46,324 nucleotides of DNA from Spirochaetaceae bacterium. GTDB lineage: Bacteria > Spirochaetota > Spirochaetia > SZUA-6 > Bin103. Every line of letters begins with the position of its first letter. The first letter of the stretch is position 1. The notes below the pieces were generated by a model. That model worked only from the letters and a program-made list of their open reading frames with translations, was not told the DNA's origin and ran no database searches. The translations under genes were made by a program, and so were the position numbers. This document shows positions 1 through 45,585 of this stretch, one piece after another. The stretch is taken from the NCBI GenBank assembly GCA_028818385.1, contig JAPPNY010000048.1, positions 1 to 46,324 of the forward strand, given 5' to 3'.

Positions 1-79
1 TCTCGAATCCTCAATTCAGCCAACTTTCGGGCTGGAGCGCGAATAACCCGGGGTTGATAGCTCCAGGAGGAGAACGGGT

Positions 80-1345
80 ATGTCACAAGAGACTCGCGAC
101 TTGGCGCGGAAACATGGACCCTCCTTTCGGAGGCCGACAGGGGTGTGCGGCCGACGCCTCACGATTCGTACGAAGGCGTCGATGAGACGTGCACTGATTA
201 CCGTTGCGGCCCTCTGTTCACTGGCCTTGGTGACATGGCCCGTGGCCGCCGACCTGGATCCGGCGATTCAGGCCGACCTGCACCTGGTGCAGGCGGAGGA
301 CTTCATTAAAGAAAAGAACTACGTTGCTGCACAAGAGGCCATGAAGAAGATCCTGGTTTTGCAGGAGAAGCACGACCTGAAGATACCGACCGAGTTTCAT
401 TTCAAGTATGCGCAGGTACTGGAGCTGGCGGGTCACTACGAGGAGGCGGTTGCGGCGGTGACCGAATACTTGAAGATCGCGGGCCGGGGCGGCGTGCACT
501 ACCGGGAAGCGTTATCGCTGCTGCACACGGCCACGCAGGGGCTTCAACCGCCGGCCGTGGGGGAGCAGTTTCGCGATTGCGCGGAGTGTCCGGAGATGGT
601 GGTCGTGCCGGCCGGCAGCTACGTGATGGGGTCGCCGTCGTCGGAAGAAGGGAGGTGGGACCACGAAGGACCGCAGCATCGGGTGACCATAGGTGAGCCC
701 TTTGCCGTCGGCACGTACGAGGTGACGTTCGAGGAGTGGGACGCATGCGTGAGCGGCGGCGGTTGCGGCGGCTATGCTCCCGACGCAAGGTGGGGGCGCG
801 GCCGGCGGCCGGTCGCCAACGTGAGTTGGTACGACGCCCAACGGTATGTCGCGTGGCTGCGGCACGAAACCGGCGAGCCATATCGCCTGCTCAGCGAAGC
901 CGAGTGGGAATACGTAGCACGCGCGGGGAGTAGTATGGCGCATTACTGGGGGGAGAGTTCATCAGTTCAGTGCCGATACGAGAACGGGGCTGACCAGACG
1001 ATAAAGGAGAACAGTAGCAATTATACCGATAGCGACGTGGTCTCGTGTGACGACGGTTATTACGGAGCGGCCCCCGCAGGATCATTCAGTCCGAACGGAT
1101 ACGGATTGTACGATGCCTTGGGAAACGTGGCGGAATGGGTCGAGGACTGCTGGAATGACAGCTATCGAGGAGCGCCGTTTGATGGCAGCGCGTGGGAAAG
1201 CGGCAATTGCAGTCGTCGGGTAGTGCGCGGCGGCGCGTGGGCCTTCGGGCCTGTGGGCATGCGCTCCGCGTATCGCGGCTGGGACGGGACCGGGGACCGT
1301 CCCTTCTACGCTGGTTTCCGAGTTGCCCGGACGATCACGCCATGA
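80..1345 (+). CDS. Secreted formylglycine-enzyme-fold (SUMF1/FGE-sulfatase) protein, candidate DGR variable protein
   Basis: The C-terminal part (about residues 172-421, from EMVVVPAGSYVMGS to GFRVAR) is a complete FGE-sulfatase/SUMF1 domain, a C-type-lectin-like fold, with the landmarks LLSEAEWEYVARAG and GLYDALGNVAEWVEDCW. Residues 58-160 look helical and TPR-like. The two cysteines used by true formylglycine-generating enzymes near the C-terminus are absent (the site reads GMRSAYRGWDG), so sulfatase activation is unlikely and ligand binding is more plausible. Two starts compete: ATG 80 has a strong AGGAGGAG ribosome site at 64-73, whereas ATG 182 begins a clean signal peptide (MRRALITVAALCSLALVTWPVAA). 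Export is expected either way. The last 40 residues correspond to the Asn-rich repeat 130 bp downstream in a way that fits DGR mutagenesis. Family call is firm; binding role is inference. Confidence 0.88.
   Translation: MSQETRDLARKHGPSFRRPTGVCGRRLTIRTKASMRRALITVAALCSLALVTWPVAADLDPAIQADLHLVQAEDFIKEKNYVAAQEAMKKILVLQEKHDLKIPTEFHFKYAQVLELAGHYEEAVAAVTEYLKIAGRGGVHYREALSLLHTATQGLQPPAVGEQFRDCAECPEMVVVPAGSYVMGSPSSEEGRWDHEGPQHRVTIGEPFAVGTYEVTFEEWDACVSGGGCGGYAPDARWGRGRRPVANVSWYDAQRYVAWLRHETGEPYRLLSEAEWEYVARAGSSMAHYWGESSSVQCRYENGADQTIKENSSNYTDSDVVSCDDGYYGAAPAGSFSPNGYGLYDALGNVAEWVEDCWNDSYRGAPFDGSAWESGNCSRRVVRGGAWAFGPVGMRSAYRGWDGTGDRPFYAGFRVARTITP
1214..1342 (+). repeat. Variable-repeat-like copy at the 3' end of the FGE-fold gene
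   Basis: This stretch encodes the C-terminal RRVVRGGAW...GFRVAR of the FGE-fold protein. It aligns codon for codon, with one extra codon, to the Asn-rich sequence at 1478-1591. From the shared TGG (1238 and 1502) through the 23-codon core, Asn, Lys and Arg codons of the downstream copy become Ala, Gly, Tyr, Asp, Pro, Phe and Trp here. The flanks are conserved: CGTCGGGT and GGCGGC upstream, and an exact 15-base match GGTTTCCGAGTTGCC (1313-1327) downstream, placed where an initiation-of-mutagenic-homing site would sit. Confidence 0.6.
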
Positions 1346-1436
1346 TTCTTCACCTCCTTCCCGGGGGACAGCCTGTCCTCGTGGTCGACCGCTTCCGGGA
1401 CCTCGATCGGGCCACGGGTCAGGTGAGACCGTGATA

Positions 1437-1478
1437 GACAGGGATAATCCGGCGCGGGAGGGCTTGGCCGTCCCTGTC
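1437..1478. repeat. 8-bp inverted repeat before the template-like repeat
   Basis: GACAGGGA (1437-1444) is an exact inverted match of TCCCTGTC (1471-1478), with a 26-nt GC-rich loop. It lies between the end of the FGE-fold gene and the Asn-rich repeat. DGR loci often carry a hairpin just after the variable repeat, but the usual form has a short loop, so this is only suggestive. A weak terminator is the other reading, though no T-run follows. Confidence 0.3.
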
Positions 1479-1591
1479 GTCGGGTGGTGAGTGGCGGCTC
1501 TTGGAACAGCAAACCCAGGAACCTGCGCTTCGTCAATCGCAACAGGAACGAGACCGGGAACCGCAACAACGTAGGTTTCCGAGTTGCCCAT
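1478..1591 (+). repeat. Candidate DGR template repeat (AAC-rich), non-coding copy of an FGE C-terminus
   Basis: Read in the frame of the upstream gene it gives GGSWNSKPRNLRFVNRNR followed by NETGNRNNVGFRVA, the Asn-rich pattern known from DGR template repeats of FGE-fold targets. It has no start codon of its own and continues to a stop at 1610. Of 24 adenines in the 69-nt core, 20 differ from the copy at 1238-1306, but only 8 of 45 non-adenine positions differ. The non-A differences show that the two copies are not a fresh template/product pair. Alternative: an ordinary truncated FGE paralogue. No reverse transcriptase or Avd gene is visible within the window. Confidence 0.55.
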
Positions 1592-1760
1592 ACGCTCGCA
1601 TGTCGGAGTTGACAGTCTCACGCGGCCGCGGGAATGCGAACGAGCGTCCAGGGACGGGTATGGCGACACGAATGGGGGCGCCTCTTGTTCCGCGATTCGC
1701 GGGAGGGCGCCGCCCACTCGATCAACAGGAACGCGGTTCAGCAGTGCAGGAGGAGAGAGC

Positions 1761-4109
1761 ATGAGTTGGCACGGATCGATCTCTTCCTGTGAACGACACG
1801 GCTTGTCTCGGACATGCCGGCTGTGCGTTCTTGTCCTGGGCCTTATGGCCTTGACGATGCATCTGCCAGCGCCTGCTGATGCACGCATTCTCAGCAGCTT
1901 GCTGCTGCTCATCGATACGTCGGGAAGCATGGACGAGGAGATCGGCAGTGGGAGTGCCGAGATCAAGCTCGAAGCCGCGAAGCAGGCGGCGATCGCCGCG
2001 GTCGACCGCGCGACGGCGAGCGGCACCGCGGAAGTGGCTGTGCTCGCGTTCGAGGGCGGCTGTCACGCGCCCGTCTCACGATATATCGAATTCACAACAG
2101 ACGTCGATCGGCTGACGCGCTTCATCGACAGCTTGCAGACCGGCGGCGGTACGCCCATGGCGGAGGCCGTCCTGTTCGCGAACCGGTTCATGCGCGACCA
2201 CGGCGATCCTGCAGCGAACTCGCAGATGATCGTGCTGCTAGCTGACGGCGGCAACGACTGCGGAGACGTGGCGCAGGCGATGGCGGAGTTGCAGGCCGCC
2301 GGCATCGTGTTCCGTCACGAGACGGTGGGATTCGGCATCGAGCCCGCGTCCGAAGCCGCCAGCGAGCTGCGCCACGTCGCAACCGCAAGCGGCGGTGAAT
2401 ACCACCATGCCGCCAGCGCCACGCAGCTCGCCGACGTGTTCATGGAGTTCGTCGACACCATGACGGTGATCGACCTGTTGGGGTCGTTCGGCATCGGCAC
2501 GTCCCGCGACGCTTCGTCAGCATCGCCGCCCGCCGGCTCGACACCCGACTCAACGGCTCAGAGTACGCCCGGTCGCGACAGCGACACCGGATCGGTTACG
2601 GATCTGATCGGTACGTTCACGGTCGAAGATCCGAAAGAGACTGCGGGTGCGCTTGCGATCGACACCGACAAGGGTGCGGCATGGGGGTGGGCCGCTGGCT
2701 ATCCCACAGTGGGGGAGGCCGAACGAGAGGCGCTTGCCGAGTGCGGCGCAGGCTGCCGGATCGTGGTGACCTTCGAGGAGGGCTGCGCCGCGTATGCCGT
2801 CGATCGCAGTCCGGGCCGATCGGTAGCCGCTTGGGCGTCCGATTTCGAGTCCAGGATCGAGGCGACCGAGGCTGCGCTCGCCGAGTGTGCGAGGCAAGGC
2901 GGTACAGATTGTATTGTGCGCGTGTGGGCTTGTGAGGACGGAACGGGGGGTGCCGTGTCCGGGAGCGCGACCGGCGGGCCTGTGCCCGGCGCCGACGACG
3001 ACCAAGCGGGCCGGCGCGAGACTGCGGGCGCGCTTGCGATCGATAGCGGCCAAGGCGAGGCGTGGGGGTGGGCTGCCGGCCATGCCACGGTGGCGCAGGC
3101 GGAACGTGAGGCGCTTGCCGGGTGCGGCGACGAGTGCCAGATCGTTGTACGTTTCGACTTCGGTTGCGCGTCGTATGCGGCGGACCAGACTCCTGGCAGC
3201 ACGGTCTTCGGCTGGGCGACCGAGTTCGAATCCAGGATCGAGGCGGCCGATGCGGCGCTCGCCGAGTGCGCCCGCAGGGGCGGTGAGGACTGTCTTGTGC
3301 GCGTGTGGGCGTGCGGCAATGGAACCGGCAACGGCGCATCCGGACGCGCGTCTGCAGTCCGTTCGCCCGGTGGCGGTGACGATCAAGACGGACGGGACGA
3401 GACTGCGGGCGCGCTTGCGATCGACAGCCCTCAGGGCGAGGCATGGGGCTGGGGTGCCGGCTATGCCACCGTGGCGGAAGCGGAACGTGAGGCGCTTGCG
3501 AGATGCGGCGAAGAGTGCCAGGTCGTGGTGAGATTCGAGGAGGGCTGCGCGGCGTATGCGGCCGACCAGACGCCGGGCAGCACGGTCGTCGCCCCGGCGT
3601 CCGGGTTCGATTCCGGGTTCGATGCGACTGCGGTTGCGCTCGACCAGTGCGCCCGAAGGGGCGGTGAAGATTGCCTTGTGCGCGTGTGGGCGTGCGACAA
3701 TGGAACCGGGAACGGCGCGTCCGGGCGCGGGTCCGCAGGCCGTTCGCCCGATACCGGCGACGATCAAGACGGACGGGACGAGACTGCGGGCGCGCTTGCG
3801 ATCGACAGCCCTCAGGGTGAGGCATGGGCTTGGGCTGCCGGCTATGCCACCGTAGCGGAAGCGGAACGTGAAGCGCTTGCAGGGTGCGGCGAAGAGTGCC
3901 GGATCGTGGTGAAATTCGAGGAGGGTTGCGCGGCATATGCGGCCGACCAGACGCCCGGCAGCACGGTCGTCGCCCCGGCGTCCGGGTTCGATTCCGGGTT
4001 TGATGCGACTGAGGCTGCGCTCGACGAGTGCGCCAGGAGAGGCGGCGCGGACTGTCTCGTGCTTGTGTGGGCATGTGATGACGGAACCGGGCTCGAACCC
4101 GAGGAGTGA
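1761..4109 (+). CDS. Secreted von Willebrand factor A protein with four DUF4189 repeats
   Basis: The product is 782 aa. The start at 1761 is set by AGGAGGAGAG a few bases upstream and opens on a signal peptide (hydrophobic about residues 20-42); earlier in-frame starts lack this. A vWA domain follows, with the MIDAS motif DTSGSM at residues 52-57, a GGGTPMAEAV loop and LLADGGNDCGD, so metal-dependent adhesion or binding is expected outside the cytoplasm. A short linker leads to four copies of a cysteine-rich DUF4189 module (units begin near residues 293, 420, 547 and 674), each opening with ETAGALAID and containing AEREALA, CxxxC, VVxFxxGCAxYA and VRVWAC motifs. Units three and four are nearly identical. 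DUF4189 function is unknown. The gene is co-oriented with the FGE-fold gene. It may serve in surface interaction or envelope surveillance. Confidence 0.9.
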   Translation: MSWHGSISSCERHGLSRTCRLCVLVLGLMALTMHLPAPADARILSSLLLLIDTSGSMDEEIGSGSAEIKLEAAKQAAIAAVDRATASGTAEVAVLAFEGGCHAPVSRYIEFTTDVDRLTRFIDSLQTGGGTPMAEAVLFANRFMRDHGDPAANSQMIVLLADGGNDCGDVAQAMAELQAAGIVFRHETVGFGIEPASEAASELRHVATASGGEYHHAASATQLADVFMEFVDTMTVIDLLGSFGIGTSRDASSASPPAGSTPDSTAQSTPGRDSDTGSVTDLIGTFTVEDPKETAGALAIDTDKGAAWGWAAGYPTVGEAEREALAECGAGCRIVVTFEEGCAAYAVDRSPGRSVAAWASDFESRIEATEAALAECARQGGTDCIVRVWACEDGTGGAVSGSATGGPVPGADDDQAGRRETAGALAIDSGQGEAWGWAAGHATVAQAEREALAGCGDECQIVVRFDFGCASYAADQTPGSTVFGWATEFESRIEAADAALAECARRGGEDCLVRVWACGNGTGNGASGRASAVRSPGGGDDQDGRDETAGALAIDSPQGEAWGWGAGYATVAEAEREALARCGEECQVVVRFEEGCAAYAADQTPGSTVVAPASGFDSGFDATAVALDQCARRGGEDCLVRVWACDNGTGNGASGRGSAGRSPDTGDDQDGRDETAGALAIDSPQGEAWAWAAGYATVAEAEREALAGCGEECRIVVKFEEGCAAYAADQTPGSTVVAPASGFDSGFDATEAALDECARRGGADCLVLVWACDDGTGLEPEE
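2637..4109 (+). repeat. Tandem 381-bp repeat array (DUF4189 units)
   Basis: The marker GAGACTGCGGG recurs at 2637, 3018, 3399 and 3780, giving a period of exactly 381 bp (127 codons) three times. The last unit is shortened at the C-terminus. Units 3 and 4 share long identical stretches, for example around the AIDSPQGEAW and ADQTPGSTVVAPASG codons, so the array has expanded or been homogenised recently. All units stay in frame. Confidence 0.93.
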
Positions 4110-10726: not shown

Positions 10727-11869
10727 ATGGCCCTCATCCCGCGTGCGTTGAGCGCGACCATCGAGCGGCGCGTGCGTCGTGGCGGCAAGGTGGCGATCCT
10801 CTACGGGGCGCGCCAGACCGGCAAGACCACGCTTCTGGACGAGCTGTTGCCCAGGCTTCCCTATCGCAGTCTTGCGGTCAGCGCGGACGAGACGCGGTAC
10901 CTGGACGTGCTCTCCAGCCGGGACCTCGGCGCCATGACTCGCCTGGTCGCCGGCTACGATCTGCTGTTCATCGACGAGGCGCAACGCGTTCCCGACATCG
11001 GCATCAACCTGAAGATCCTCACGGACGGCCTTCCCGACCTCCGCGTCGTCGCCACCGGGTCCTCGTCGTTCGAGCTGGCCAACCGGGTCAGCGAGCCGCT
11101 CACCGGTCGCACCTGGACGCACGTCCTGTATCCGGTGTCGGTTCTGGAGTTGGCCCATCTGCACAACCCGTTCGAGCTGGAGCAGATGCTCGACGCGCTG
11201 CTGGTCTACGGCTCCTACCCGGAAGTCTTCTCCCTGCACAACGACGCGGACAAGGCGGAGCACCTCCGGGAAGTGAGCACCGCCTATCTCTACAAGGACG
11301 TTCTGGAGCTGGCCGGGATACGCCGCGGAGGGAAGATCCACGACCTGTTGCGGCTGCTGGCATTCCAGATCGGGTCGGAGGTCTCGATCCATGAGCTGGC
11401 CAGGCAGCTTTCGATGAGCCGTGACACCGTCGAGTCGTACCTCGACCTGCTGGAGCAGGCGTTCGTCATCGCGAGGCTCGGTGGGTACAGCAGGAACCTG
11501 CGCAAGGAGGTTACCAAGATGAAGAAGGTGTACTTCCTGGATCTCGGCATCCGCAACGCCGTGATCGAGAACTTCGCGCCGACCTCGCGGCGTGACGACG
11601 TCGGCCGGCTCTGGGAGAACTTCCTGGTGATCGAGAGGCAGAAGACCCTGGCCTATACCGGTCGTCGCGGCCGTACGTTCTTCTGGCGCATCTACACCGG
11701 GGCCGAGCTGGACTACGTCGAGGAGCGCGACGGGATGCTCGACGGTTTCGAGATCAAGCTGCAGGGCCGCCGAGGGCGCATCCCGAGCGCCTGGTCCCAA
11801 ACCTACCCGAACGCCACGGCCACGGTGATCAGCCGCGACAACTGGCTCGACTTCCTGATCCCGGGCTGA
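10727..11869 (+). CDS. AAA-family ATPase with C-terminal DUF4143
   Basis: The 380-aa protein has Walker A GARQTGKTT (residues 27-35), Walker B LLFIDEAQR (D83, E84) and a sensor-like TGSSSFEL, then a winged-helix segment (VSIHELARQLSMSRDTVESYL) and the DUF4143 nuclease-like C-terminal region (YFLDLGIRNAV, LWENFLVIER, DGFEIK). Members are widespread orphan ATPases; their biological role remains unclear, although mobile or toxin-like behaviour has been suggested. It stands alone between the reductase and the ABC operon and has its own palindromic promoter. ATG 10727 has no ribosome site; the upstream in-frame extension lacks family similarity. Confidence 0.92.
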   Translation: MALIPRALSATIERRVRRGGKVAILYGARQTGKTTLLDELLPRLPYRSLAVSADETRYLDVLSSRDLGAMTRLVAGYDLLFIDEAQRVPDIGINLKILTDGLPDLRVVATGSSSFELANRVSEPLTGRTWTHVLYPVSVLELAHLHNPFELEQMLDALLVYGSYPEVFSLHNDADKAEHLREVSTAYLYKDVLELAGIRRGGKIHDLLRLLAFQIGSEVSIHELARQLSMSRDTVESYLDLLEQAFVIARLGGYSRNLRKEVTKMKKVYFLDLGIRNAVIENFAPTSRRDDVGRLWENFLVIERQKTLAYTGRRGRTFFWRIYTGAELDYVEERDGMLDGFEIKLQGRRGRIPSAWSQTYPNATATVISRDNWLDFLIPG

Positions 11870-26984: not shown

Positions 26985-29873
26985 ATGGCTGATAGAGACC
27001 AGGAGAGACACTACAAGCCGGCGGGGCTGAACCGCTGGTTCGCGATCAGCTCCATCCTGCTGCTGGCCGCGATCGTCGGCGTCTTCCTGGAGGACTTCAA
27101 TCGCGAATGGAAGCGCTACCAGCGCGAGTTCCGAGACATCGACCGGCAGATCACGCGCGGCGCCTGGGAGACGGAGCTCGCGCGGCTGGAGGGCGAGTCG
27201 CAGTACCAGCAGGCGGTCGCCGCGGTGGACGCCGCACGGACGCGGCAGGACGAGCTGCAGGGCGACATCCGCGCCGCCGAGCGCGAGGTGCGCCGGGCCG
27301 ATACCGAGTTCCAGGGGATCAACCAGCGCTACCTCACCGACAAGGCCCGCTACGAGGAGGCGCTGTACAAGTTCGAGCAGGCGCAGGCGGGCGTGGGCGG
27401 CAACGTGGACCGCGAGCGCGCTCGCAAGGAGCGGCTGCTCGTGCAGTACGAGGAGTCGGGTGTCGAGCACGAGGCGGCGACGCTGATGCTGGAGGGCGTG
27501 CAGGCGCAGCTCGCCGGCTACCGGGAAGAGCTGCGCCAGGCCGAGCGCGCCGTCACCGGCCTGCAGCGCGACGCGGACGTCCTGGTCGGCAAGCTGGAGC
27601 GCATCGACCCGCAGGCGATGGACTTCTGGAACCGGCTGGGCGCCGGCGTCCGCGACCTGCCGATCATCGACTTGGCGCAGCCGTCGCTGAAGATCGAGCA
27701 GATCGTGCTGAGCGACATCCGCGAGGATCTCAACTTCGAGATGGTGCCGCGCGTGGACCGCTGCGTGACCTGCCACCAGGGCGTGTCGCGGGCGGACCTG
27801 GCGGAGGCTCCCAACCCCCACCGCACCCACCCGCGCCTCGACCTGTTCCTGGCCAGCGACTCGCCGCATCCGCTGGAGGAGTTCGGGTGCACGAGCTGTC
27901 ACGGCGGGCGCGGGCGCGCCACCGACTTCTACGGCAGCGTGCACACCCCGGACGGCAAGGCGCAGCAGGTCGCGTGGCAGTCCGACCTGGGCTGGCGGGA
28001 GTTCCACCTGTGGGAGGAGCCCATGCACCCCGCGCGCTACGCGGAGGCGGGCTGCTTCCAGTGCCACGCCGGACAGACCACGGTGAAGGGCGCTGAGAAG
28101 CTCAGCTTCGGGCTCTCCCTGATCGAGCGCGCCGGCTGCTACGGCTGCCACGAGATCGACTCCTATGAGGGACTCAGCCCGCGCGGCCCGTCGCTGGCGC
28201 GCGTCAAGGACAAGCTGACTCCGGACTGGGCGTTCCGCTGGATCCAGGATCCCAAGGCGTTCCGCGCCAACGCGTGGATGCCGGCCTTCTTCGGCCAGCC
28301 CAACAACAGCACCCCCGAGCTGACCGCGCGCACCGAGCAGGAAATTCACGCGATGGTCAGCTACCTGTGGGACCACGCAGACGGCTACGAGATGGAGCCG
28401 CTGCCGGCCGGCGGCGACGCGGCGCGCGGCGAGGAGCTGGTCGCGTCGGTCGGCTGCATGGCCTGCCACCAGCTCCCGGACAGCCAGGAGCCGGCCGCGA
28501 ATCAAGACGCGCTGCGGCGCCAGTTCGGCCCCAACTTCGCCGGCATCGGCTCCAAGACCACGCCGCGGTGGATCTACAACTGGCTGCGCAATCCCGAGAG
28601 CTACCATGCCGGGACGCGCATGCCCGACATGCGCCTGACCGAGCAGGAGGCGGCCGATGTCACCGCCTACCTGGTCACCTTCCAGAACGACGCGTACGGG
28701 CCGCCCCCCGCCGTGAACGAGGAGTTGGTCGGCGAGATCGTGGTCGGCTTCCTGGGCAAGACCGCGCCGCCCAGCGTGGCCCGCGACCAGGCGGCCGCCA
28801 TGGACATCGGCGAACAGCTCAACTACGCCGGCGAGCGTCTGATCCGCCAGTACGGCTGCTTCGGCTGCCACGAGATCCCCGGGTTCGAGACGGCGAAGCC
28901 GATCGGCACCGAGCTGACGGCGATCGGCCACAAGCCGCTGCACCAGTTCGACTTCGGCTTCCTGCACATCGAGCACACCCGCTACGACTGGTGGACGCAG
29001 AAGATGAAGGACCCGCGCTCCTTCGACGAGCACAAGGAGCTCCCGCCGGACCTGCTGCTGCGTATGCCGAACTACGGCTTCACGGATCAGCAGGTGGAGG
29101 CGGTGGTCACCGTGCTGGCCGGCTTCGTGGAGCCTGACGAGGACCTGACCAAGATTGTGCCGCGCACGCCGGAGCGGCTGGCGATCGAGCGCGGCCAGCA
29201 GCTCGTGCGGACCAACAACTGCCAGGCGTGCCACATCATCGAGGGCGAGGGCGGCTCCATCGCGCCGACGGTCACCGACTGGCTGGTGCGCTTCCGCGGC
29301 CAGGGAGCCGCGGCGGCTGAGGCGGCCACCGTCGGCTTCGCGCCGCCCAACCTGGTCGGCGAGGGCGCCAAGGTGCAGACCGACTGGCTGTTCGCGTTCC
29401 TGCACGAGCCGTCGGAGATCCGCCCGTGGCTGGCGGCGCGCATGCCCACCTTCGGCTTCAGCGCGAGCGAGATCAACGACCTGGCGCGCTACTTCAGCGC
29501 CCTCGACGGACAGGAGTTCCCGTTCGTGGAGCGGGTCGAGCCGGCGCTCACCGCCGAGGAGCTTCAGGCGGCGGAGAAGCTGTGGTCCACCGACTACTTC
29601 AACTGCACCACCTGCCACATCCAGGGAGGCGAGACGCCGCCGGGCACGCCCGACCGCTGGGCGCCCGACTTCGCGCTGGCCGCGGAGAGGCTCAAGCCGC
29701 AGTGGATCATCGACTGGATCGCCGATCCGCAGACGCTGCTGCCCGGCACCAGGATGCCGACCTTCTATCCGCAGGCCACGCCGCGCGACATTCTGGGCGG
29801 CGACGCCGACCACCAGATCCGGGTGCTGCGCGACTACATCCTGACCATCGGCCTGGCTGCCGCGGACAACTAG
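26985..29873 (+). CDS. Octahaem c-type cytochrome with N-terminal membrane anchor and coiled coil
   Basis: About 962 aa from ATG 26985 (a TTG six bases earlier is possible). A transmembrane anchor at about residues 19-36 is followed by a long charged coiled coil (about 40-210) and then eight CXXCH haem sites at residues 260, 302, 357, 385, 491, 625, 746 and 874. The last four sit in mono-haem cytochrome-c-like modules, each followed by a TRMPxF-type Met-ligand region. It replaces cytochrome c1 in the operon and should carry electrons from Rieske toward the oxidase in the periplasm. Its size, haem number and coiled coil are unusual for complex III. Confidence 0.93.
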   Translation: MADRDQERHYKPAGLNRWFAISSILLLAAIVGVFLEDFNREWKRYQREFRDIDRQITRGAWETELARLEGESQYQQAVAAVDAARTRQDELQGDIRAAEREVRRADTEFQGINQRYLTDKARYEEALYKFEQAQAGVGGNVDRERARKERLLVQYEESGVEHEAATLMLEGVQAQLAGYREELRQAERAVTGLQRDADVLVGKLERIDPQAMDFWNRLGAGVRDLPIIDLAQPSLKIEQIVLSDIREDLNFEMVPRVDRCVTCHQGVSRADLAEAPNPHRTHPRLDLFLASDSPHPLEEFGCTSCHGGRGRATDFYGSVHTPDGKAQQVAWQSDLGWREFHLWEEPMHPARYAEAGCFQCHAGQTTVKGAEKLSFGLSLIERAGCYGCHEIDSYEGLSPRGPSLARVKDKLTPDWAFRWIQDPKAFRANAWMPAFFGQPNNSTPELTARTEQEIHAMVSYLWDHADGYEMEPLPAGGDAARGEELVASVGCMACHQLPDSQEPAANQDALRRQFGPNFAGIGSKTTPRWIYNWLRNPESYHAGTRMPDMRLTEQEAADVTAYLVTFQNDAYGPPPAVNEELVGEIVVGFLGKTAPPSVARDQAAAMDIGEQLNYAGERLIRQYGCFGCHEIPGFETAKPIGTELTAIGHKPLHQFDFGFLHIEHTRYDWWTQKMKDPRSFDEHKELPPDLLLRMPNYGFTDQQVEAVVTVLAGFVEPDEDLTKIVPRTPERLAIERGQQLVRTNNCQACHIIEGEGGSIAPTVTDWLVRFRGQGAAAAEAATVGFAPPNLVGEGAKVQTDWLFAFLHEPSEIRPWLAARMPTFGFSASEINDLARYFSALDGQEFPFVERVEPALTAEELQAAEKLWSTDYFNCTTCHIQGGETPPGTPDRWAPDFALAAERLKPQWIIDWIADPQTLLPGTRMPTFYPQATPRDILGGDADHQIRVLRDYILTIGLAAADN

Positions 29874-29990
29874 CGCCCCAAGACCGTCGCCCGTGGCTCC
29901 GCTCTTGGCCCATCCCACCGTTCCCTATGACGCCGCCGGGCCGGCCGCCGGCGCGGCCAGCCCGGCACCCTCATAGGAGACAGGCGGCGC

Positions 29991-30794
29991 ATGCTGCTTC
30001 GCCTGTCCGCGTCCGTCTTCCTGTCGTTCGGCGGCCTGTATCCGCTGTGGCTGTGGGTCAACCGGCGCGACGGGATCGACCACGGCTTCACGCGCTTCAA
30101 CCTGGGCATGGCCGCGGTCGTGCTGGGCCTGGGCGTGCTGCTGATCACCCTGGTCCCGGGGCAGGGCCCCCCGGGCGGCGGCACGGCACGGCCGTGGCTG
30201 GCGCTGGTCTGGCTGGGCGTCGCCATGGCCGCGACCGCCTACGCGTGGCAGCGCCGGCCCTGGGCGATCGCGGCGTGCGCGGTGCCGCCGGCGGTAGGCG
30301 TCTTCGTGCTGGTCGACGGCCTTGCCGGCACGCCGGCCGCGGCCTCCGGGGTGCTGGCGGCCGCGGCCGCGGCCACGCGGGTCGGCGGGGTGGGGCGTGG
30401 GGGGGGGATGTTCACGCTGGTGGTAGGGCCCCACTACCTGAACGCCGAGAAGATGCCGACCCGCTTCCTGGGCAAGGCGATCGCCGTGTACGCAGCCGTC
30501 CTGTCGGTCCGCCTGGTCTGGGACACGGTGGTGATCGCCGCGGGCAGCGTCACGGTCGGCGGCTTCGAGCGCCCGGTGCTGGACTTCGCCCTGAGCCTCG
30601 ACGGCATGTTCGTCTGGATCGCGTTGTTCTTCGGGACGGTGGTGCCGCTGGTGATCTGCTTCCTGGCAGGGGCGGCGGTACGCGCCAAGTCCACGCAGGC
30701 GGCCACCGGACTGCTGTACGTGGCGGTGAGCGCCGCCATCATCGGCGAGGCCAGCTACCGCTTCGACCTGCTGTCCTACGGCCTGGCGCTGTGA
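29991..30794 (+). CDS. Polytopic membrane protein in the respiratory cluster, unknown
   Basis: The 267-aa protein has about seven hydrophobic spans (for example LNLGMAAVVLGLGVLLITLV and PLVICFLAGAAVRAKSTQAA). No family is assigned; MFTLVVGPHYLNAEKMPTRF faintly recalls the GHWYL motif of another membrane family. It follows the octahaem cytochrome by 117 bp and overlaps the next gene, so a role in the bc complex or its assembly is likely. A nine-G run at 30399-30407 lies inside the gene and is prone to slippage. Confidence 0.65.
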   Translation: MLLRLSASVFLSFGGLYPLWLWVNRRDGIDHGFTRFNLGMAAVVLGLGVLLITLVPGQGPPGGGTARPWLALVWLGVAMAATAYAWQRRPWAIAACAVPPAVGVFVLVDGLAGTPAAASGVLAAAAAATRVGGVGRGGGMFTLVVGPHYLNAEKMPTRFLGKAIAVYAAVLSVRLVWDTVVIAAGSVTVGGFERPVLDFALSLDGMFVWIALFFGTVVPLVICFLAGAAVRAKSTQAATGLLYVAVSAAIIGEASYRFDLLSYGLAL

Positions 30795-31261
30795 GCGGTG
30801 AGGAGGGCGCAGGCGAGCTGGCGCTGTCGTGGAGTTGCGCAGCCTGCGGCGAGGCGAACGCGTCGCGGCCGGCCGGCGACGGCGTGGCGTGCGACGCGTG
30901 CGGGACGGCCGTGGCGGTGACCGAGCCGCACCGCCAGCTCCGCCAGTGCGCGGTGTGCTCCTCGACACGCCTCTACCGCCAGCGCGACTTCAACCGCTTC
31001 CTGGGACTGGCCGTGATCGTGGTGGGCGCGGTGCTGGTGCCGTTCACCTACGGGATCAGCCTGCCGGTGGTGTTCCTGATCGACCTGATCCTGTACCGGC
31101 GCGTGGCGGAGATGGCCGTGTGCTACCTCTGCCGGGCCGAGTACCGGGGCATCGAGGTGCCGAAGCGCATCCTGCCGTTCCGCCATCACCTGGCCGCCGG
31201 CTACGAGAAGCGGCGCGAGCGGTGGCTGGAGCAGACCGGCCAACGCACCGAACCGGACTGA
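30791..31261 (+). CDS. Zinc-ribbon membrane protein
   Basis: GTG 30791 overlaps the preceding stop (GTGA). The 156-aa product has three Cys pairs: CAACGEA with CDACGTA, CAVCSS, and CYLCRAEY, consistent with zinc-ribbon folds, and two helices (FLGLAVIVVGAVLVPFTYGI and LPVVFLIDLILY). Such proteins can act as assembly or metal-handling factors. Co-translation with the membrane protein before it suggests a shared job. No named family. Confidence 0.65.
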   Translation: MSGEEGAGELALSWSCAACGEANASRPAGDGVACDACGTAVAVTEPHRQLRQCAVCSSTRLYRQRDFNRFLGLAVIVVGAVLVPFTYGISLPVVFLIDLILYRRVAEMAVCYLCRAEYRGIEVPKRILPFRHHLAAGYEKRRERWLEQTGQRTEPD

Positions 31262-31266
31262 AGCCC

Positions 31267-32598
31267 GTGCCCGTCCGCCCCGCACCCGTCCGCCCCAACA
31301 TCGTCTTCGTCTTCTCCGACCAGCACCGCGCGCGGACGACCGGCTACGAGGGCGCCGCGGTGCAGACGCCGGCGATGGACCGCTTGGCGGCAGAGGGTGT
31401 GGTGTTCGACACGGCGGTCTCCAGCATTCCCGTCTGCACCCCGTGGCGCGCCGCGCTGCTCACCGGCCAGTACCCGCTCACCAACGGCGTGTTCCTCAAC
31501 GACGTGCGGCTTCCCACCGACCGGCCGACCCTCGGCACGATCCTGCGCGACGCCGGCTACGACACCGCGTACATCGGCAAGTGGCATCTGGACGGCAACC
31601 GCCGCGGCGCGTTCACGCCGCCGGGTCCGCGCCGCCAGGGATTCAGTTTCTGGGCTGCCGCCAACTGCACGCATGACTACCTGCGGTCCTTCTACTACCG
31701 GGACACGCCCGAGCGGCTGTGGTGGGACGGATACGACGCCGCGGCGCAGACCGACATGGCCGTCGACTACATCGCCTCGCGGCCCGCGGACGTGCCGTTC
31801 GCCCTGGTGCTCTCCTGGGGGCCGCCGCACAACCCCTACCGGGACGTGCCTCAGGAGTACCTGGACCGCTACCCTGTCGCGGACGTCGAGGTTCCGGCGA
31901 ATTGCCCGGATCCGGTCCGCGAGGACCTCGCCGGCTACTGTGCGCACGTCGCGGCGCTGGACGAGCAGCTTGCCCGCATCGCCGCCGCCATCGACGCGGC
32001 CGGCCTGCGCGAGGACACCATCCTCGTCTACACCTCCGACCACGGCGACATGCTGGGCTCGCAGGGGATGACCCGCAAGCAGCATCCCTGGGACGAGTCG
32101 ATCCGGGTGCCGTTTCTCCTGCGCTGCCCGGACCAGGCGGGACGCGGCCGCCACCTCCCGTTTCCGTTCGGCGTGGTGGACATTCTGCCGACGCTGCTCG
32201 GCTTGGCCGGGGTGCCGATCCCGGAATCCGTCGAGGGGTGCGACGTGTCGCCGGCCATCCGCGGCGAGCCGTTCGCGGCGCCCGAGCACGCCCTCACCAT
32301 GTGCATCACCCCGTTCGCGGAGTACGTCGGGGCGCCCTGGCGCGGCGTCCGCTCCGCGCGCTACAGCTATGCGCGCTGGCTGGACGGCCAGGGCATCCTG
32401 TACGACACCGCGGCCGACCCCGACCAGCTCGACAACCGGTATGGCAGCCGCTCCCATGCCGCTCTGCAGCGCCATCTGGAGGACGCCATGCAGCAGCTCC
32501 TCGCCGAGCGCGGTGACCGGTTCCTGCCCGCCGCGCACTACGTCGAGCGCCATGGATTCACCGTCGATGAGCGCGGAGCCGTCCCCTTCAGCCTGTGA
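31267..32598 (+). CDS. Type I sulfatase, Cys-type
   Basis: The 443-aa protein starts at GTG 31267. It has the sulfatase metal site NIVFVFSDQH (D18), the formylglycine signature CTPWR with C57, and the downstream YTSDHGDMLGSQGMTRKQHP block. The catalytic Cys requires oxidation to formylglycine by an FGE; the FGE-fold protein at 80-1345 lacks the catalytic cysteines and cannot be assumed to do this. No signal peptide is seen, so it may act on imported sulfated sugar. Only five bases separate it from the zinc-ribbon gene. Substrate unknown. Confidence 0.93.
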   Translation: MPVRPAPVRPNIVFVFSDQHRARTTGYEGAAVQTPAMDRLAAEGVVFDTAVSSIPVCTPWRAALLTGQYPLTNGVFLNDVRLPTDRPTLGTILRDAGYDTAYIGKWHLDGNRRGAFTPPGPRRQGFSFWAAANCTHDYLRSFYYRDTPERLWWDGYDAAAQTDMAVDYIASRPADVPFALVLSWGPPHNPYRDVPQEYLDRYPVADVEVPANCPDPVREDLAGYCAHVAALDEQLARIAAAIDAAGLREDTILVYTSDHGDMLGSQGMTRKQHPWDESIRVPFLLRCPDQAGRGRHLPFPFGVVDILPTLLGLAGVPIPESVEGCDVSPAIRGEPFAAPEHALTMCITPFAEYVGAPWRGVRSARYSYARWLDGQGILYDTAADPDQLDNRYGSRSHAALQRHLEDAMQQLLAERGDRFLPAAHYVERHGFTVDERGAVPFSL

Positions 32599-32623
32599 AG
32601 TGCTACTGAATCGGAGCGCTGCC

Positions 32624-33331
32624 TCAGGTCACATGTGCTGGAAGCAAATGATCAGTGCGGTTGAGGTAGCGGATCTGCCGACGTTGGAGTGTGATCGAGA
32701 TCCGGCTGATGCCGGTGTTCTCATGGGTGAAGCGCTCATACAGCACATCCTGGGGGACGCCCACCAGCGCGCCGACAAGACTGGATCCGAACCCACCATG
32801 CAGTACGGCGCCGACCCGTTGCTCCGCGCCGACGTGGTGTGCTTCCAAGTGAGCTACGAAAGACACCGCGTTGCGGTGGGCGAGTTGCAGCATCGCCCGG
32901 TCTCCCTCCCAGTCGTGGAACCACCATCCGCGGTCGGTGACGTCGGCGGGTAGCACGACGCCGGGAAACATCGCGCTCATTTCCTTCCGGGTCAGTCCGG
33001 GGAGTTGAACTCTGGTGCCGTCGTCGCGCGATTCCCACACGCCGCCCCACTCGTGAAGTCCAACGAACACATGAGAGGAGAGATCGAGCACCGCGCCGAC
33101 GATCTGTGCCGTCTGCAGGGTTCTCAGCATCGGCCCGCAGTAGAGCTTGGTGACGCCCTCCTCCCTGAGCGCCTCGCCGGCCTGGCGCGCCTGCAGCTCG
33201 CCGAGATCTGTCAGCGGCGGGTCAGCCATGCGCGGCGCGACCGCCGCGGGCGTAGTGTCCGGATGCTCGGCCAGTACCTGCTCTCTCAGGTTGTTGGCCG
33301 ACTGCCCGTGCCTGATGAGGTACAGTTCCAT
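32624..33331 (-). CDS. Histidine phosphatase (phosphoglycerate-mutase-like) family protein
   Basis: The 235-aa protein carries the RHG motif YLIRHGQSANN with phospho-acceptor His8, a second acid region (CGPMLRTLQTA) and the late VLHGGFGSS histidine. Members dephosphorylate small metabolites or proteins; substrate cannot be called. It is convergent with the sulfatase and divergent from the cupredoxin lipoprotein. Confidence 0.9.
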   Translation of the reverse strand: MELYLIRHGQSANNLREQVLAEHPDTTPAAVAPRMADPPLTDLGELQARQAGEALREEGVTKLYCGPMLRTLQTAQIVGAVLDLSSHVFVGLHEWGGVWESRDDGTRVQLPGLTRKEMSAMFPGVVLPADVTDRGWWFHDWEGDRAMLQLAHRNAVSFVAHLEAHHVGAEQRVGAVLHGGFGSSLVGALVGVPQDVLYERFTHENTGISRISITLQRRQIRYLNRTDHLLPAHVT

Positions 33332-33496
33332 GTCGGTGGACGCAGGATAGTTCTCCTGGAGAGCCTATGCCAGCCGCATCTCGAGAGCGCTGGCTCTGTT
33401 GCCCCGGACCTACTGCGTCAAGTTGACAGATCGGCCGCAACCTGCGACCGTAAGCGAGAGCCTGTCACGGCTCCCACTTCCTCCGGAGGACCCTAC

Positions 33497-34381
33497 GTGT
33501 ACCTACGTGAAGACTCTTCTCTGACTGCGGGACCCGCAGGCGCGCGCCGCCGTCGGTCACTGCTGCCGACCGCGCTGCTGCCGATGCTGGCGGCGCTTCT
33601 GGCCTTGACGCTGGCCGCCTGTGGCGGCGGCGACGACGGCGGTTCCGAGACCACGACCGAAGCCGAGAAGCCCAAGGAGCCCGCGACCACGTCCAGCGCC
33701 GAGCAGGCGTCGTCCACGCCGGGCGCGCTGAACGCGACCATCTCCGGCACCATCACCTTCGGCGCCGAAGCCAGGCGCGCGCCGGCCGTCCTGAACATGG
33801 AAGCCGACCCGGTCTGCGCCGAAAAGAACGCCGAGGATCCCAAGACCGAGCAGGCGTTCCTGCTCGACGATGCGAAGGGGCTGGCCAACGTTTTGATCCA
33901 GGTCACGTCCGGGCTTCCGGAGATGGAGTTCGACGCTCCGGCGTCGGAGGTGGAGTTCACCCAGTCGGGCTGCATCTACGATCCGCACATCCTGATCGCG
34001 CGGGTGGGCCAGACGGTCAAGATCCTCAATCCCGACGGCACGCTCCACAACGTTCACGTGTTCGGCAAGGTCAACCAGGAATTCAACCAAGCCATGCCGA
34101 AGTTCCAGACCGAGCTCGAGCAGGTGTTCGACAAGGTGGAGGCCGAGCCGTTCGCCATCAAGTGCGACGTGCACCCGTGGATGAACGCGTTCGGCGTGGT
34201 GCTCGATCACCCGTACGCGGCCGTGACGGCTCCCGACGGCACGTTCAGCATTCCGAACCTGCCGGCCGGCACGTACCAGGTGGAGGTCTGGCACGAGTTG
34301 CTGGGCGCGTCGACGCATGAGGTCACCGTTACCGAAGGCGGCACCGCGACGCTCGACCTGGCTCTGCAGCCGCCGAGTTGA
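33497..34381 (+). CDS. Cupredoxin-like lipoprotein with carboxypeptidase-regulatory domain
   Basis: GTG 33497 is preceded by GGAGGA. A signal sequence ends in the lipobox TLAAC (Cys42), followed by a flexible GGGDDGGSETTTEAEK tether. Next comes a cupredoxin-like domain with HNVHVF and KCDVHPWMNAF, giving candidate copper ligands His, Cys, His and Met. The final 60 residues (APDGTFSIPNLPAGTYQVEV) are a carboxypeptidase-regulatory-like beta domain. It sits 18 bp before the oxidase subunit I gene and probably delivers electrons or copper to the oxidase at the outer face of the membrane. A TTGACA at 33423-33428 may be part of its promoter. Confidence 0.85.
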   Translation: MYLREDSSLTAGPAGARRRRSLLPTALLPMLAALLALTLAACGGGDDGGSETTTEAEKPKEPATTSSAEQASSTPGALNATISGTITFGAEARRAPAVLNMEADPVCAEKNAEDPKTEQAFLLDDAKGLANVLIQVTSGLPEMEFDAPASEVEFTQSGCIYDPHILIARVGQTVKILNPDGTLHNVHVFGKVNQEFNQAMPKFQTELEQVFDKVEAEPFAIKCDVHPWMNAFGVVLDHPYAAVTAPDGTFSIPNLPAGTYQVEVWHELLGASTHEVTVTEGGTATLDLALQPPS

Positions 34382-34399
34382 CGCACGCGAGCTGACGTA

Positions 34400-36202
34400 G
34401 TGGCGCACGCCGGCACCGCAGACCACGCCGCGCACTCGCACGGCGACCATCCGCCGGAGCCGTTCTGGCGGAAGTACATCTTCTCGATCGATCACAAGAC
34501 GATCGGCATCCAGTACGGCATCACCGCCCTGGTGTTCCTGTTCTTCGGGTTCTGCCTGGTGATGATCATGCGCTACAGCATCGCCTACCCCGGCAGCCCG
34601 CTGCCGCTGCTGGGCGGTCTGCTCAACCTTCCCGAGCCGGGCGCCATCCCGCCGGAGTTCTACAACCAGCTCGGCGCCATGCACGGCACGATCATGGTCT
34701 TCCTGGGCGTCGTGCCGCTGGCGGTCGGGGCGTTCGGCAACTACTTCGTGCCGCTGCAGGTGGGCGCCCCGGACATGGCGTTCCCGAAGCTCAACATGAC
34801 CAGCTACTGGATGTACTTCATCGGCGGCGTGGTCATGCTGATCAGCTTCTTCGTGCCGGGCGGCGCCGCCAAGTCCGGGTGGACCTCCTACGCGCCGCTG
34901 TCCGTGATCGAGACGGTGGGGCAGACGTGGTGGCTGATCGGCATGATCTTCCTGATCACCTCGTCGCTGCTCGGCTCGATCAACATCATCACCACGATCG
35001 TGCAGCTCCGCGCCCCGGGGCTGGCCTACATGCGCATGCCCTTCTTCGTCTGGGCGCAGCTCATCACCTCGTTCCTGCTGCTGCTGGCGTTCCCGCCGCT
35101 GGAGGCGGCCGGCGTGCTGCAGCTCCTGGACCGGGTAGCGGGCACCAGCTTCTTCCTGCCCACCGGACTGGTGATCTCCGGCGAACCGCTGGAGGTGTCC
35201 GGCGGCGGCAGCGCGCTGCTGTGGCAGCACCTGTTCTGGTTCCTGGCCCATCCGGAGGTGTACGTCCTGATCCTGCCGGCGTTCGGGGTCATCGCCGAGG
35301 TCATCGCCAACAACACGCGCAAGCCGCTGTGGGGCTACAAGTCGCTGGTCTACTCGGCGCTGTTCATGGGCTTCATGTCGTTCATCGTGTGGGCGCACCA
35401 CATGTTCCTGACCGGCATGGGCACAGTGATCAGCTCTTTCTTCCAGTTGACGACCATGATCATCTCGGTGCCGTCGATCATCATCCTGACGGCGTTCATC
35501 CTGTCGCTGTGGGGCGGCTCCATCCGCTTCACGGCGCCGATGAAGTTCGCGCTGGCCTTCATCCCCATGTTCGGCATCGGCGGCCTGACGGGGCTGCCGC
35601 TCGGCCTGGCTTCCGCCGACATCTACCTGCACGACACCTACTACGTGATCGGCCACTTCCACTACGTCGTGGCGCCGGGGTCGCTGTTCGGACTGTTCGC
35701 CGGGATCTACTACTGGTATCCCAAGGTGACCGGCCGGCGCATGAGCGAACGGCTGGCGAGCTGGCACTTCTGGCCTTCGCTGATCTTCATGAACGGCGTC
35801 TTCTTCCCGATGTTCATCCAGGGCATGGCCGGCGTGTCCCGGCGCCTCTACGACGGCGGCGCCACGTACGCCCACGCGCAGGACGTGCTCTGGCTCAACG
35901 AGGTGATGTCGTTCTCCGCGTGGGGGCTGGGGCTGGCGCAGATCTTCTTCATCGTCAACTTCATCATCAGCCTGCGGAAGCCGAAGGAAGCGGAAGAGAA
36001 CCCGTGGGAGGCGACCACCCTGGAGTGGGCAGCGCCCTCACCGCCGCTGCCGCACGTCAACTTCCGCGAGCCGGTGGCCGTTACCCGGCCGCCCTACGAC
36101 TACAGCCCGGCAGGCGCCAAGGCCGGGTTCCTGCCGCAGCACAGTCCCGCCGGGGCCGGGCCCGACCCGGCCGGCGCCGCGCCTACCGGCGCCGGACACT
36201 GA
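34400..36202 (+). CDS. ctaD: Cytochrome c oxidase subunit I
   Basis: The 600-aa protein (GTG 34400) has about 12 helices and the haem-copper signatures: FWFLAHPEVYVLILPAFG with the Cu-B His and cross-linked Tyr, FIVWAHHMFLTGMG with the His-His pair, and HDTYYVIGHFHYVVAPGSLF with haem ligands. The HPEVY element and later motifs place it in the A-type (aa3/caa3) family. The C-terminal tail (about 50 residues) is Pro/Ala-rich. It is the proton-pumping catalytic core of terminal oxygen reduction. Confidence 0.98.
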   Translation: MAHAGTADHAAHSHGDHPPEPFWRKYIFSIDHKTIGIQYGITALVFLFFGFCLVMIMRYSIAYPGSPLPLLGGLLNLPEPGAIPPEFYNQLGAMHGTIMVFLGVVPLAVGAFGNYFVPLQVGAPDMAFPKLNMTSYWMYFIGGVVMLISFFVPGGAAKSGWTSYAPLSVIETVGQTWWLIGMIFLITSSLLGSINIITTIVQLRAPGLAYMRMPFFVWAQLITSFLLLLAFPPLEAAGVLQLLDRVAGTSFFLPTGLVISGEPLEVSGGGSALLWQHLFWFLAHPEVYVLILPAFGVIAEVIANNTRKPLWGYKSLVYSALFMGFMSFIVWAHHMFLTGMGTVISSFFQLTTMIISVPSIIILTAFILSLWGGSIRFTAPMKFALAFIPMFGIGGLTGLPLGLASADIYLHDTYYVIGHFHYVVAPGSLFGLFAGIYYWYPKVTGRRMSERLASWHFWPSLIFMNGVFFPMFIQGMAGVSRRLYDGGATYAHAQDVLWLNEVMSFSAWGLGLAQIFFIVNFIISLRKPKEAEENPWEATTLEWAAPSPPLPHVNFREPVAVTRPPYDYSPAGAKAGFLPQHSPAGAGPDPAGAAPTGAGH

Positions 36203-36214
36203 GCCAGCACTTCC

Positions 36215-36808
<594 letters not shown>

Positions 36809-36848
36809 CGATGGATGCCCTGTTCCAGGATGTAGCGAGGAGTTGAAG

Positions 36849-37163
36849 GTGGCCGATCAACACGTCGACAAGCACGTCCGCCAGTACGTGGCGGTGTTCA
36901 TAGCGCTGATGGTGCTGACGATCGTCACGGTGCTGGCCAGCCGCATCGATATCGGTGTTGCCGGCGGCATCACCCTTGCTCTGATCATCGCCAGCGTGAA
37001 GGGCACGCTGGTAGCCGGCGTGTTCATGCACCTGTTCAGCGAAAAGCGCAAGATCGTCTACACGGTGCTGATCTACACCGGCATCTTCCTGCTGGTGCTG
37101 TTTCTGCTCACCGCCCTGAGCTACGGGGACACGCTCGACCTCGGAGACCCGGACTCAAGGTAG
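36849..37163 (+). CDS. Cytochrome c oxidase subunit IV (CyoD/CtaF-like)
   Basis: From GTG 36849 (AGGAG at 36837-36841; a TTG at 36843 is less well spaced) the 104-aa product has three helices, including KGTLVAGVFMHLFSEKRKIV, the family motif of the prokaryotic subunit IV. It stabilises the oxidase core. Follows subunit III in the operon. Confidence 0.85.
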   Translation: MADQHVDKHVRQYVAVFIALMVLTIVTVLASRIDIGVAGGITLALIIASVKGTLVAGVFMHLFSEKRKIVYTVLIYTGIFLLVLFLLTALSYGDTLDLGDPDSR

Positions 37164-37168
37164 GCGGC

Positions 37169-37372
37169 ATGTCTCTCAAGGTGTTCCATGTCGTCTTCGT
37201 CTCCATCGCCGGGCTGTTCCTGGCACTGTTCTCGGGCTGGGCGTTCCTGTTCGCTCCCGGACTCGACCGCGGCCCCGCCGTCGCGCTGGGCGTTTCGGCG
37301 GCGGCCGGACTGGTGGCGCTGATCGTCACCGAGCGGCGCGTGCTGGCCAGCCTGCCGCGGAGGCCGCGATGA
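37169..37372 (+). CDS. Small two-helix membrane protein in the oxidase operon
   Basis: The 67-aa peptide has two helices (HVVFVSIAGLFLALFSGWAF and AVALGVSAAAGLVALIVTER) and a basic tail. It starts five bases after subunit IV, and its end overlaps the next start (ATGA). Position suggests an accessory or assembly subunit; no family is recognised. Confidence 0.7.
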   Translation: MSLKVFHVVFVSIAGLFLALFSGWAFLFAPGLDRGPAVALGVSAAAGLVALIVTERRVLASLPRRPR

Positions 37373-37644
37373 TGCGCCGCCACGCCGCGCGGCTGCATCC
37401 GGCGCTCGTTGCGGCGGCGCTGCTCCTGGTGCCCCGCCTTGCCGGCGCCTGCGCGGTCTGTTTCGGAGATCCCGATTCTCCCGCCTCCAAGGGGCTGACG
37501 GTCGCCGTGCTGTTCCTGGTGGGGGTCATCGTCGCCGTGCTGGCCGGGGTGGCGCTGTTCGCGGTCACCATGCTGCGGCGCAACGAGCGGCAGCATGAGC
37601 GCGGCGCGCACGGCGCCGCGCTGACTGGGGGAACCGATGGTTGA
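37369..37644 (+). CDS. Small membrane protein with CAVCFG motif in the oxidase operon
   Basis: The 91-aa product has a signal-like N-terminus ending ACAVCFGDPDS, a Cys-X2-Cys motif that could bind copper or form a disulfide, and one helix (GLTVAVLFLVGVIVAVLAGV). It overlaps both neighbours (ATGA with the previous gene, eight bases with subunit II). An assembly or copper-insertion role is inferred from context only. Confidence 0.7.
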   Translation: MMRRHAARLHPALVAAALLLVPRLAGACAVCFGDPDSPASKGLTVAVLFLVGVIVAVLAGVALFAVTMLRRNERQHERGAHGAALTGGTDG

Positions 37645-38416
37645 ATTCGCGCAGGCGCTCGGCCTGCCGCTCGACATCTCCGCTCACGGCTACCGGATCG
37701 ACGCGATCATCGGCTGGGTGCACCTGGTCATGTTCGTGCTGTTCGTCGGCTGGGGCGCGTTCTTCATCTACGCCATGATCCGCTTCCGGCGGCGGAGGAA
37801 CCCCGTTGCCGACCCACAGGGCGTCCGTACGCACGCGACCAGCTACCTGGAAGCCGTGATCGTGGTGATCGAGCTGGTGCTGCTGTTCGCACTGTCGATC
37901 CCGTTCTGGGCCGGCTTCGTGGCCAAGGTGCCGGAGCCGTCGGAGGCGATGCGGATACGCGTCGTCGCGCAGCAGTTCCAGTGGAACATCCACTACGCCG
38001 GCCCCGACGGCGTGTTCGGCCGCACCGACCCCGCGCTGGTGCGCCCGCAGGAGAACAATCACATCGGCCTGGACCGCGACGACCTGTTCGGCAAGGACGA
38101 CGTGATGACCAACAATCAGCTCAACGTCCCGATCGACCAGCCGATCGTGATCGAGCTGTCCAGTCTGGACGTCGTGCACAGCTTCTTCGTGCCGGTACTG
38201 CGGGTGAAGCAGGATGCGGTCCCGGGACTGGTGATCCCGCTGACCTTCACCGCCACCGCCACCGGCAAGTACGAGGTCGCGTGCGCACAGCTCTGCGGCA
38301 TCGGCCACGCGCAGATGCGCGGCTTCATCACCCTGATGGAGCAGGCCGAGTTCGACGAGTGGCTGGCCAAGCGTTCCGAGGAAGCACAGCAGACCGGCGC
38401 AGGCGGCTTCTTCTGA
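37637..38416 (+). CDS. ctaC: Cytochrome c oxidase subunit II, CuA
   Basis: The 259-aa protein has two N-terminal helices (WVHLVMFVLFVGWGAFFIYA and VIVVIELVLLFALSIPFWA) and a periplasmic cupredoxin domain with the CuA site CAQLCGIGHAQM plus the upstream His in DVVHSFFVP. No C-terminal cytochrome c domain is fused, so this is aa3-like and needs a separate electron donor. Subunit II is last in the operon, an unusual order. No leader peptide is cleaved obviously. Confidence 0.97.
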   Translation: MVEFAQALGLPLDISAHGYRIDAIIGWVHLVMFVLFVGWGAFFIYAMIRFRRRRNPVADPQGVRTHATSYLEAVIVVIELVLLFALSIPFWAGFVAKVPEPSEAMRIRVVAQQFQWNIHYAGPDGVFGRTDPALVRPQENNHIGLDRDDLFGKDDVMTNNQLNVPIDQPIVIELSSLDVVHSFFVPVLRVKQDAVPGLVIPLTFTATATGKYEVACAQLCGIGHAQMRGFITLMEQAEFDEWLAKRSEEAQQTGAGGFF

Positions 38417-38426
38417 TCCCTGTCCG

Positions 38427-40774: not shown

Positions 40775-40783
40775 GGCGTGAGC

Positions 40784-41755: not shown

Positions 41756-42347
41756 CGCGCCTTCAGAGTACCACCTCGGATCAGCCGCTTGCGGAACTTC
41801 GGTCGCCGCGTCGGCGGCGGTCCGAGCCGAGCGCGATCGACGGATCAATCTCGGATCGCTCCGATCGATCAGAATTCCACTTTACACGTACGGATCACCC
41901 GTGCTATCCCTGTAGCAGGTTTCGACACGCGGGCGGCTCACGTCGGGCCGCCTGCGGAACACAATAGACGTCGGCGGTCGGGGAAATGTAGCCGTCCTGA
42001 TCGAGGCGGCGAATACGCCTTTGTTTGCGTGTTGAAGCCTCAAGACCCGGCAGTGAGGTCAGCTTGCGATGGCAGACAACAAGGCTGAGCAGCCTTTCGA
42101 GGATGCCGGTCACGCGGTTGCGCTCCAGGCTGCCGCACGGCGCCCAGTCGGTCGAGGATCTATACGCGTTGCTCCAAATGGGCGTGGTCGTCGCGTATCG
42201 AAGCGACCCTCCTCCGTTTCCGCAGCAGCCTGTGGACGCGGTCACTTGATGGTTACGCCGGATACGATGACATTGCGCGGTTTCACTGACCGCGAAGCGC
42301 CAGATGAACGTCGGCGATTCCGGTGACGTGACGGCGGAGAGCAGAGA
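41756..42347 (+). other. Intergenic stretch with a promoter candidate and a possible gene remnant
   Basis: Composition shifts to lower GC. TTTACA (41881-41886), an 18-bp spacer and TATCCC (41905-41910) form a plus-strand sigma-70-like promoter candidate. A reading frame at 42025-42249 contains the plausible QSVEDLYALLQMGVVVAYRS but begins with an Arg/Ser-rich string and has no ribosome site, so it may be a remnant. No further feature is supported. Confidence 0.35.
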
Positions 42348-43832: not shown

Positions 43833-43837
43833 CATAG

Positions 43838-44296: not shown

Positions 44297-44324
44297 CTCA
44301 CTTCGGCGAACAGGATGGTGATGA

Positions 44325-44783: not shown

Positions 44784-44831
44784 ATCCCGCGTGTGGCGAA
44801 ACGTCTCGTCTCACGACAAAGGAGTGAACGG

Positions 44832-45515: not shown

Positions 45516-45585
45516 TGACTGTCAATTGGACGCCGTACGTCGGCGAACCAACTCGAACGACCACAACGACTCACGGAGGCAGACA

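Follow-up and report, generated by a model that had tools for sequence, protein, structure and literature searches.

The 46,324-nt contig JAPPNY010000048.1 of a Spirochaetaceae bacterium (assembly GCA_028818385.1), analyzed here as a whole and referred to below as the window, carries at its left end a gene for an FGE-type (C-type-lectin-like) protein, followed shortly downstream by a second copy of the 3' end of that gene. The two copies are the variable repeat (VR) and the template repeat (TR) of a diversity-generating retroelement (DGR), and the locus is most probably a degenerate DGR, of the order target gene with VR, Avd, reverse transcriptase (RT) and TR, with a frozen FGE-type target gene. 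An earlier note on this DNA, made from the sequence alone, had proposed the DGR relationship, and as to the origin of the pair it was right, given that cassettes encoding bAvd and RT have homologues of the TR copy, of its 3' flank and of a terminator-like hairpin, and that the target has an FGE-sulfatase domain. New beyond that note are that the TR itself has changed and that the hairpin expected after the VR (the target hairpin) could not be detected. The features of the locus are the following:

80..1345, + strand: FGE-type (C-type-lectin-like) target gene, 421-aa frame (PF03781, E = 6.4e-51 at residues 169-417)
1230..1327, + strand: VR, 3' end of the target gene (core in the earlier note, 1238-1306)
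1313..1328, + strand: exact 16-nt block, identical to 1574-1589, at the place of a putative initiation-of-homing region
1346..1445, + strand: spacer 3' of the gene, weakly aligned to the spacer of the relative L001 (local score 30.5; 500 shuffles, mean 18.0, maximum 28.3)
1447..1477, + strand: possible trace of an RT 3' end just 5' of the template (DNA matches start at 1447-1460 in six loci; protein level E = 0.75)
1494..1588, + strand: TR (core in the earlier note, 1502-1570)
1589..1676, + strand: template 3' flank (22-base block 1636-1657 identical to the relative L043)
1677..1711, + strand: terminator-like hairpin, by folding (all 7 outer pairs present in the window, two of them with both partners changed)

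Adenine bias and template changes in the repeat pair

Over the two cores, VR and TR mismatch at 20 of the 24 template adenines and at 8 of the 45 other template bases (one-sided Fisher P = 1.4e-7), which reproduces exactly the counts reported before and places the bias far beyond chance. In a longer, gapped alignment the corresponding numbers were 20/26 template adenines versus 10/69 non-adenine positions (P = 1.7e-8). The 11 VR codons opposite Asn codons in canonical templates all have C or T in the third position, which is what change confined to the two adenines of Asn codons would produce. The exact downstream flank that had been described for both copies is present as 16 identical bases (1313-1328 and 1574-1589). 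The VR-TR offset changes from 264 in the core to 261 in the flank because the TR is without 3 nt that are carried by the VR and by the seven other template rows compared.

The ten non-adenine mismatches and this 3-nt gap bear out the earlier note in that the pair does not stem from recent copying. For comparison, we scanned genome contigs with the target protein; of the 321 relatives, the best 80 were retained, at 76 loci (here L001, L002 and so on). Where an RT frame is present the VR and TR generally agree more closely outside adenines: the mismatches numbered 0/68 in L006, 0/68 in L022 and 4/68 in L043, 2/69 and 1/69 for the two VRs of L066, and 1/69 and 10/69 for the two VRs of L039 (the VRs were located by a motif-based search, which missed the VR of an RT-deleted cassette in L066). 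When the ten mismatches of the window were assigned by eye, five were changes in the TR and three were changes in the VR, with two undecided. Four of the five TR changes stand against all six other TRs and one against five of the six. The window TR encodes R-F-V, versus R-S-A in five of the six other TRs and R-P-A in L043; in the proteins of the family, the S and the A of this motif occur in 65/72 and 70/72 of the segments described below, respectively.

Related cassettes and the missing machinery

Matches to window DNA that begin at 1447-1460 and end at 1654-1666 were found at seven places in six loci; five of these places are the 3' ends of RT frames with a YVDD motif (L006, L022, L039, L043 and L066) and two are RT remnants (L066 and L071). 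In L006 the RT frame was identified by Pfam as RVT_1 and the frame preceding it as bAvd, which was also found in L066. The gene order in the related cassettes is target gene with VR, bAvd, RT, TR, flank and hairpin, and an overlap of the TR with an end of the RT frame is described for structural group 3 in the DiGReF collection (PMC3521204). From the end of the target gene to the start of the TR there are 148 bases in the window versus about 1.55-1.77 kb in L006, L022, L039 and L043, such that ~1.4-1.6 kb between VR and TR is absent from the window relative to these four loci. Alignment of 1346-1470 with six cassette regions gave short, scattered matches only and no clear deletion junction. 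The cassettes of L006, L022, L043 and L066 resemble the window in their FGE-type target, C-terminal VR, homologous TR, and flank with hairpin, and the window differs from them in having no Avd, RT or target hairpin and in a TR that is changed outside adenines. Folding of the whole template 3' flank was not generally supported (z = 0.58 in the window, 0.76 in L006, -0.45 in L022 and -3.32 in L043), and we therefore restrict the structural claim to the terminal hairpin. In L039, the RT frame beside an intact TR (11119-11349) is off by one base and broken between query residues 104 and 106, which reflects decay or a sequencing error.

These matches bear on an alternative in which the second copy would be no template at all but what is left of an FGE gene after duplication. 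Many genomes have similar FGE C-termini, and a probe of TR plus flank matched at least 33 of 49 genomes, mostly over the repeat alone. The two sides of the copy, however, match the RT 3' end and the template flank of other loci, its mismatches are biased to adenines and its frame meets a stop shortly upstream, all of which make this explanation barely credible.

The earlier note had stated that the window holds neither RT nor Avd. In a tblastn search of the whole window for RT, the best match had an E of only 0.065 and no RT was found; this match and another at 1446-1607 (E = 0.75) coincide with the VR and TR, since each query RT frame extends through its own TR. The search for Avd, made with three queries and confined to 1-1800, gave no match at E = 1, nor did RT cores in the same interval. 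No relatives of the L006 RT turned up in the viral contigs scanned. The note had left three fates for the RT: upstream, in trans, or lost. Loss from the locus is the best supported of these, because in L006, L022, L039 and L043 the RT sits between VR and TR, in the very stretch that is absent from the window, and because the RT frame ends at the template in 5/8 of the flanked templates of relatives that are described below; a source in trans is less likely. It is highly improbable that the DGR is intact, with its RT and Avd located immediately past the left contig end. The contig does start 79 bases ahead of the target gene frame, with the DNA upstream of base 1 unseen, and the order of parts differs among the DGRs described in PMC3521204, but the related cassettes carry Avd and RT between VR and TR, and the TR changes and the missing target hairpin speak against activity.

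The latter structure is a regular feature of the cassettes. In phage BPP-1, a hairpin/cruciform just after the VR is described as needed for homing (PMC3240598). At all seven VRs of the RT loci a hairpin of 9-11 bp, one of them with a mismatch, was identified 46-53 bases past the VR segment, and each was equalled by only 0-2 of 300 shuffles. In the window the best stem 3' of the VR has 5 bp and was equalled by 143/300 shuffles, which is chance level.

The target gene and its family

The FGE fold that had been suggested for the target is confirmed by the PF03781 match, which reaches residue 417 of 421; the VR stops 18 bases short of the frame end. A start at 182 would give a 387-aa form of the protein (P0001). 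The VR segment contains no Cys, which would be in keeping with the lack of FGE catalytic cysteines remarked on in the earlier note; the HMMER alignment to FGE chains ends ahead of this segment. Over the gene body, omega was 0.28 relative to L001 and 0.14 relative to L002 (in the latter case with a saturated dS of 1.83), and to judge from these values the target gene, which is still open, appears to be under purifying selection.

From relatives, 72 fixed-length segments were taken, out of 67 of 120 proteins listed among 7362. Mean entropy was 3.34 bits at the 15 template-adenine positions versus 0.88 at the 9 others (P = 3e-5), and this pattern, high at template adenines and low elsewhere, marks the family, on the evidence of its sequences, as a DGR target family. 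TvpA and TaqVP are described as DGR variable proteins with the FGE subtype of the C-type-lectin fold (PMC6328139). Like them, the window target has an FGE-type domain, and the Treponema variable protein 2y3c was among its matches to solved structures (E = 4e-11); unlike them, the solved chain nearest to it by sequence is PvdO (5hha, E = 3e-56). The present-day protein is probably a fixed variant and, judging by its fold, a binding protein.

After the target gene and TR, 1761-4109 encodes a vWA protein with four DUF4189 domains (Pfam, window protein only). A region downstream of the FGE gene of L002 (5767-6746) matches the DNA of this vWA-gene region at 74%.

Probable loss of the machinery and possible rewriting in trans

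Among the best 80 of 321 relatives, L001 is the closest, with a protein 78% identical to that of the window. Downstream of its gene, tblastn located a stretch resembling Avd (E = 6e-18) that is broken up into three frames; an RT match at E = 0.1 was not found there. Profile and sequence searches of the L001 genome bin for RVT_1, DGR RT and bAvd were also without match. Window 27000-46000 was unmatched in the L001 genome bin and had weak matches in five others (63-97% over short stretches, the best being 68% over 1.1 kb). The first 48 bases of the L001 contig (1-48) are identical to window 5-52 (100%), though the genes behind them differ. Among the fetched loci, a 35-base piece of this start occurred otherwise only in copies of the L001 contig, and the common contig start may represent a repeat at which assembly breaks off.

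For templates with the flank, 50 of the 76 loci, in 49 genomes, were surveyed with at most 15 candidates scored in most genomes, so that the counts are lower bounds. At least eight templates with the flank were identified: five after an RT frame (G004, G007, G008, G009 and G010), two after an internally deleted RT and Avd (G010 and G011), and one without an adjoining RT (G014, a 5.7 Mb chromosome record; L132 1544-1641). Within the 3.2 kb read around this last template no FGE-type frame was present; RVT_1 matched at five places in G014, four of which share 28% identity with the DGR RT, and bAvd was without match. Other match positions in the same record (G014:C1) were two template halves 2.5 kb apart (2534110-2534207 and 2536737-2536799) and a lone flank piece (1520915-1521012). 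The deleted cassettes, at L066 6902-7588 and L071 7506-8192, are one common cassette with a canonical TR in which RT and Avd are internally deleted. The segment L066 5660-9032 is identical between the L066 and L071 genomes, while its surroundings differ; since the whole stretch is identical, the absence of VR differences is uninformative on trans rewriting.

These templates raise the question of whether the window is a non-autonomous cassette, with a VR that an RT and Avd elsewhere rewrite in trans, or did so until recently, from another canonical TR or the local one. Rewriting in trans has been published for RT-less loci (PMC10907252), the window VR agrees in length with the other templates and not with the local TR, the flank and hairpin stem are preserved, and RT-deleted or lone templates exist elsewhere (L066, L071 and L132). 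Conversely, the window VR is no nearer to any other TR compared (at best 11/63 non-adenine mismatches in one comparison and 12/69 in another), the target hairpin was not found in the window, and no RVT_1, DGR RT or bAvd was detected in the L001 genome bin, which may not be the kin of the window. On balance we regard such rewriting as unlikely. A broader proposal, which we consider doubtful at best, is that target-plus-template units without RT and Avd (the window, L066 and L071) and lone templates (L132) belong to one recurrent class of non-autonomous elements, which would be retained, and rewritten in trans through helper DGRs, with selection on the flank and hairpin stem.

We favor a degenerate DGR, and several observations weigh against that reading. 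L002, L019 and others are also without a nearby RT, and a hairpin after the VR is still present in L016 and, in weaker form, in L002, so hairpin and RT are not strictly coupled and the hairpin is an imperfect marker. The L039 VR at 10647, which lies beside an RT frame, is as far from its TR (10/69) as the window VR is from its own, although that RT frame is broken. The broken Avd of L001 was detected by tblastn while the bAvd profile was unmatched in that genome, and the L001 spacer match is modest. An RT, an Avd or a second TR may lie elsewhere in the genome, as the contig is what was covered. Finally, decay alone would not lead one to expect a flank and hairpin stem as well preserved as they are here; both a recent loss and a role in trans would explain this.

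For the degenerate DGR that we prefer, homology and the base pattern suggest that in its working phase TR RNA would have been copied by RT with Avd, adenines being misread, and that the cDNA would then have taken the place of the VR in the 3'-terminal part of the FGE-fold gene. Comparison with the related cassettes indicates that the locus subsequently lost Avd and almost the entire RT, presumably by deletion, leaving the VR, spacer, possible RT-tail trace, TR, flank and hairpin. Rewriting of the VR would have ceased, the TR drifted and the target hairpin been lost, with the gene apparently staying open under purifying selection. Four results suggest that the pair is no longer a working cassette: the non-adenine VR/TR mismatches, the TR changes, the target hairpin not being found and the broken Avd of L001. 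Degenerate DGR loci are on record alongside trans rewriting of RT-less loci in the account of Thiohalocapsa PB-PSB1 (PMC10907252). As in the degenerate loci described there, the window keeps the target and other parts with key machinery missing; unlike in those loci, no matching TR is known for the window VR. As a single locus the window changes little. It shows that a DGR-diversified gene can outlive its machinery, and that template regions are recognizable by their conserved flank where an RT-first survey sees nothing.
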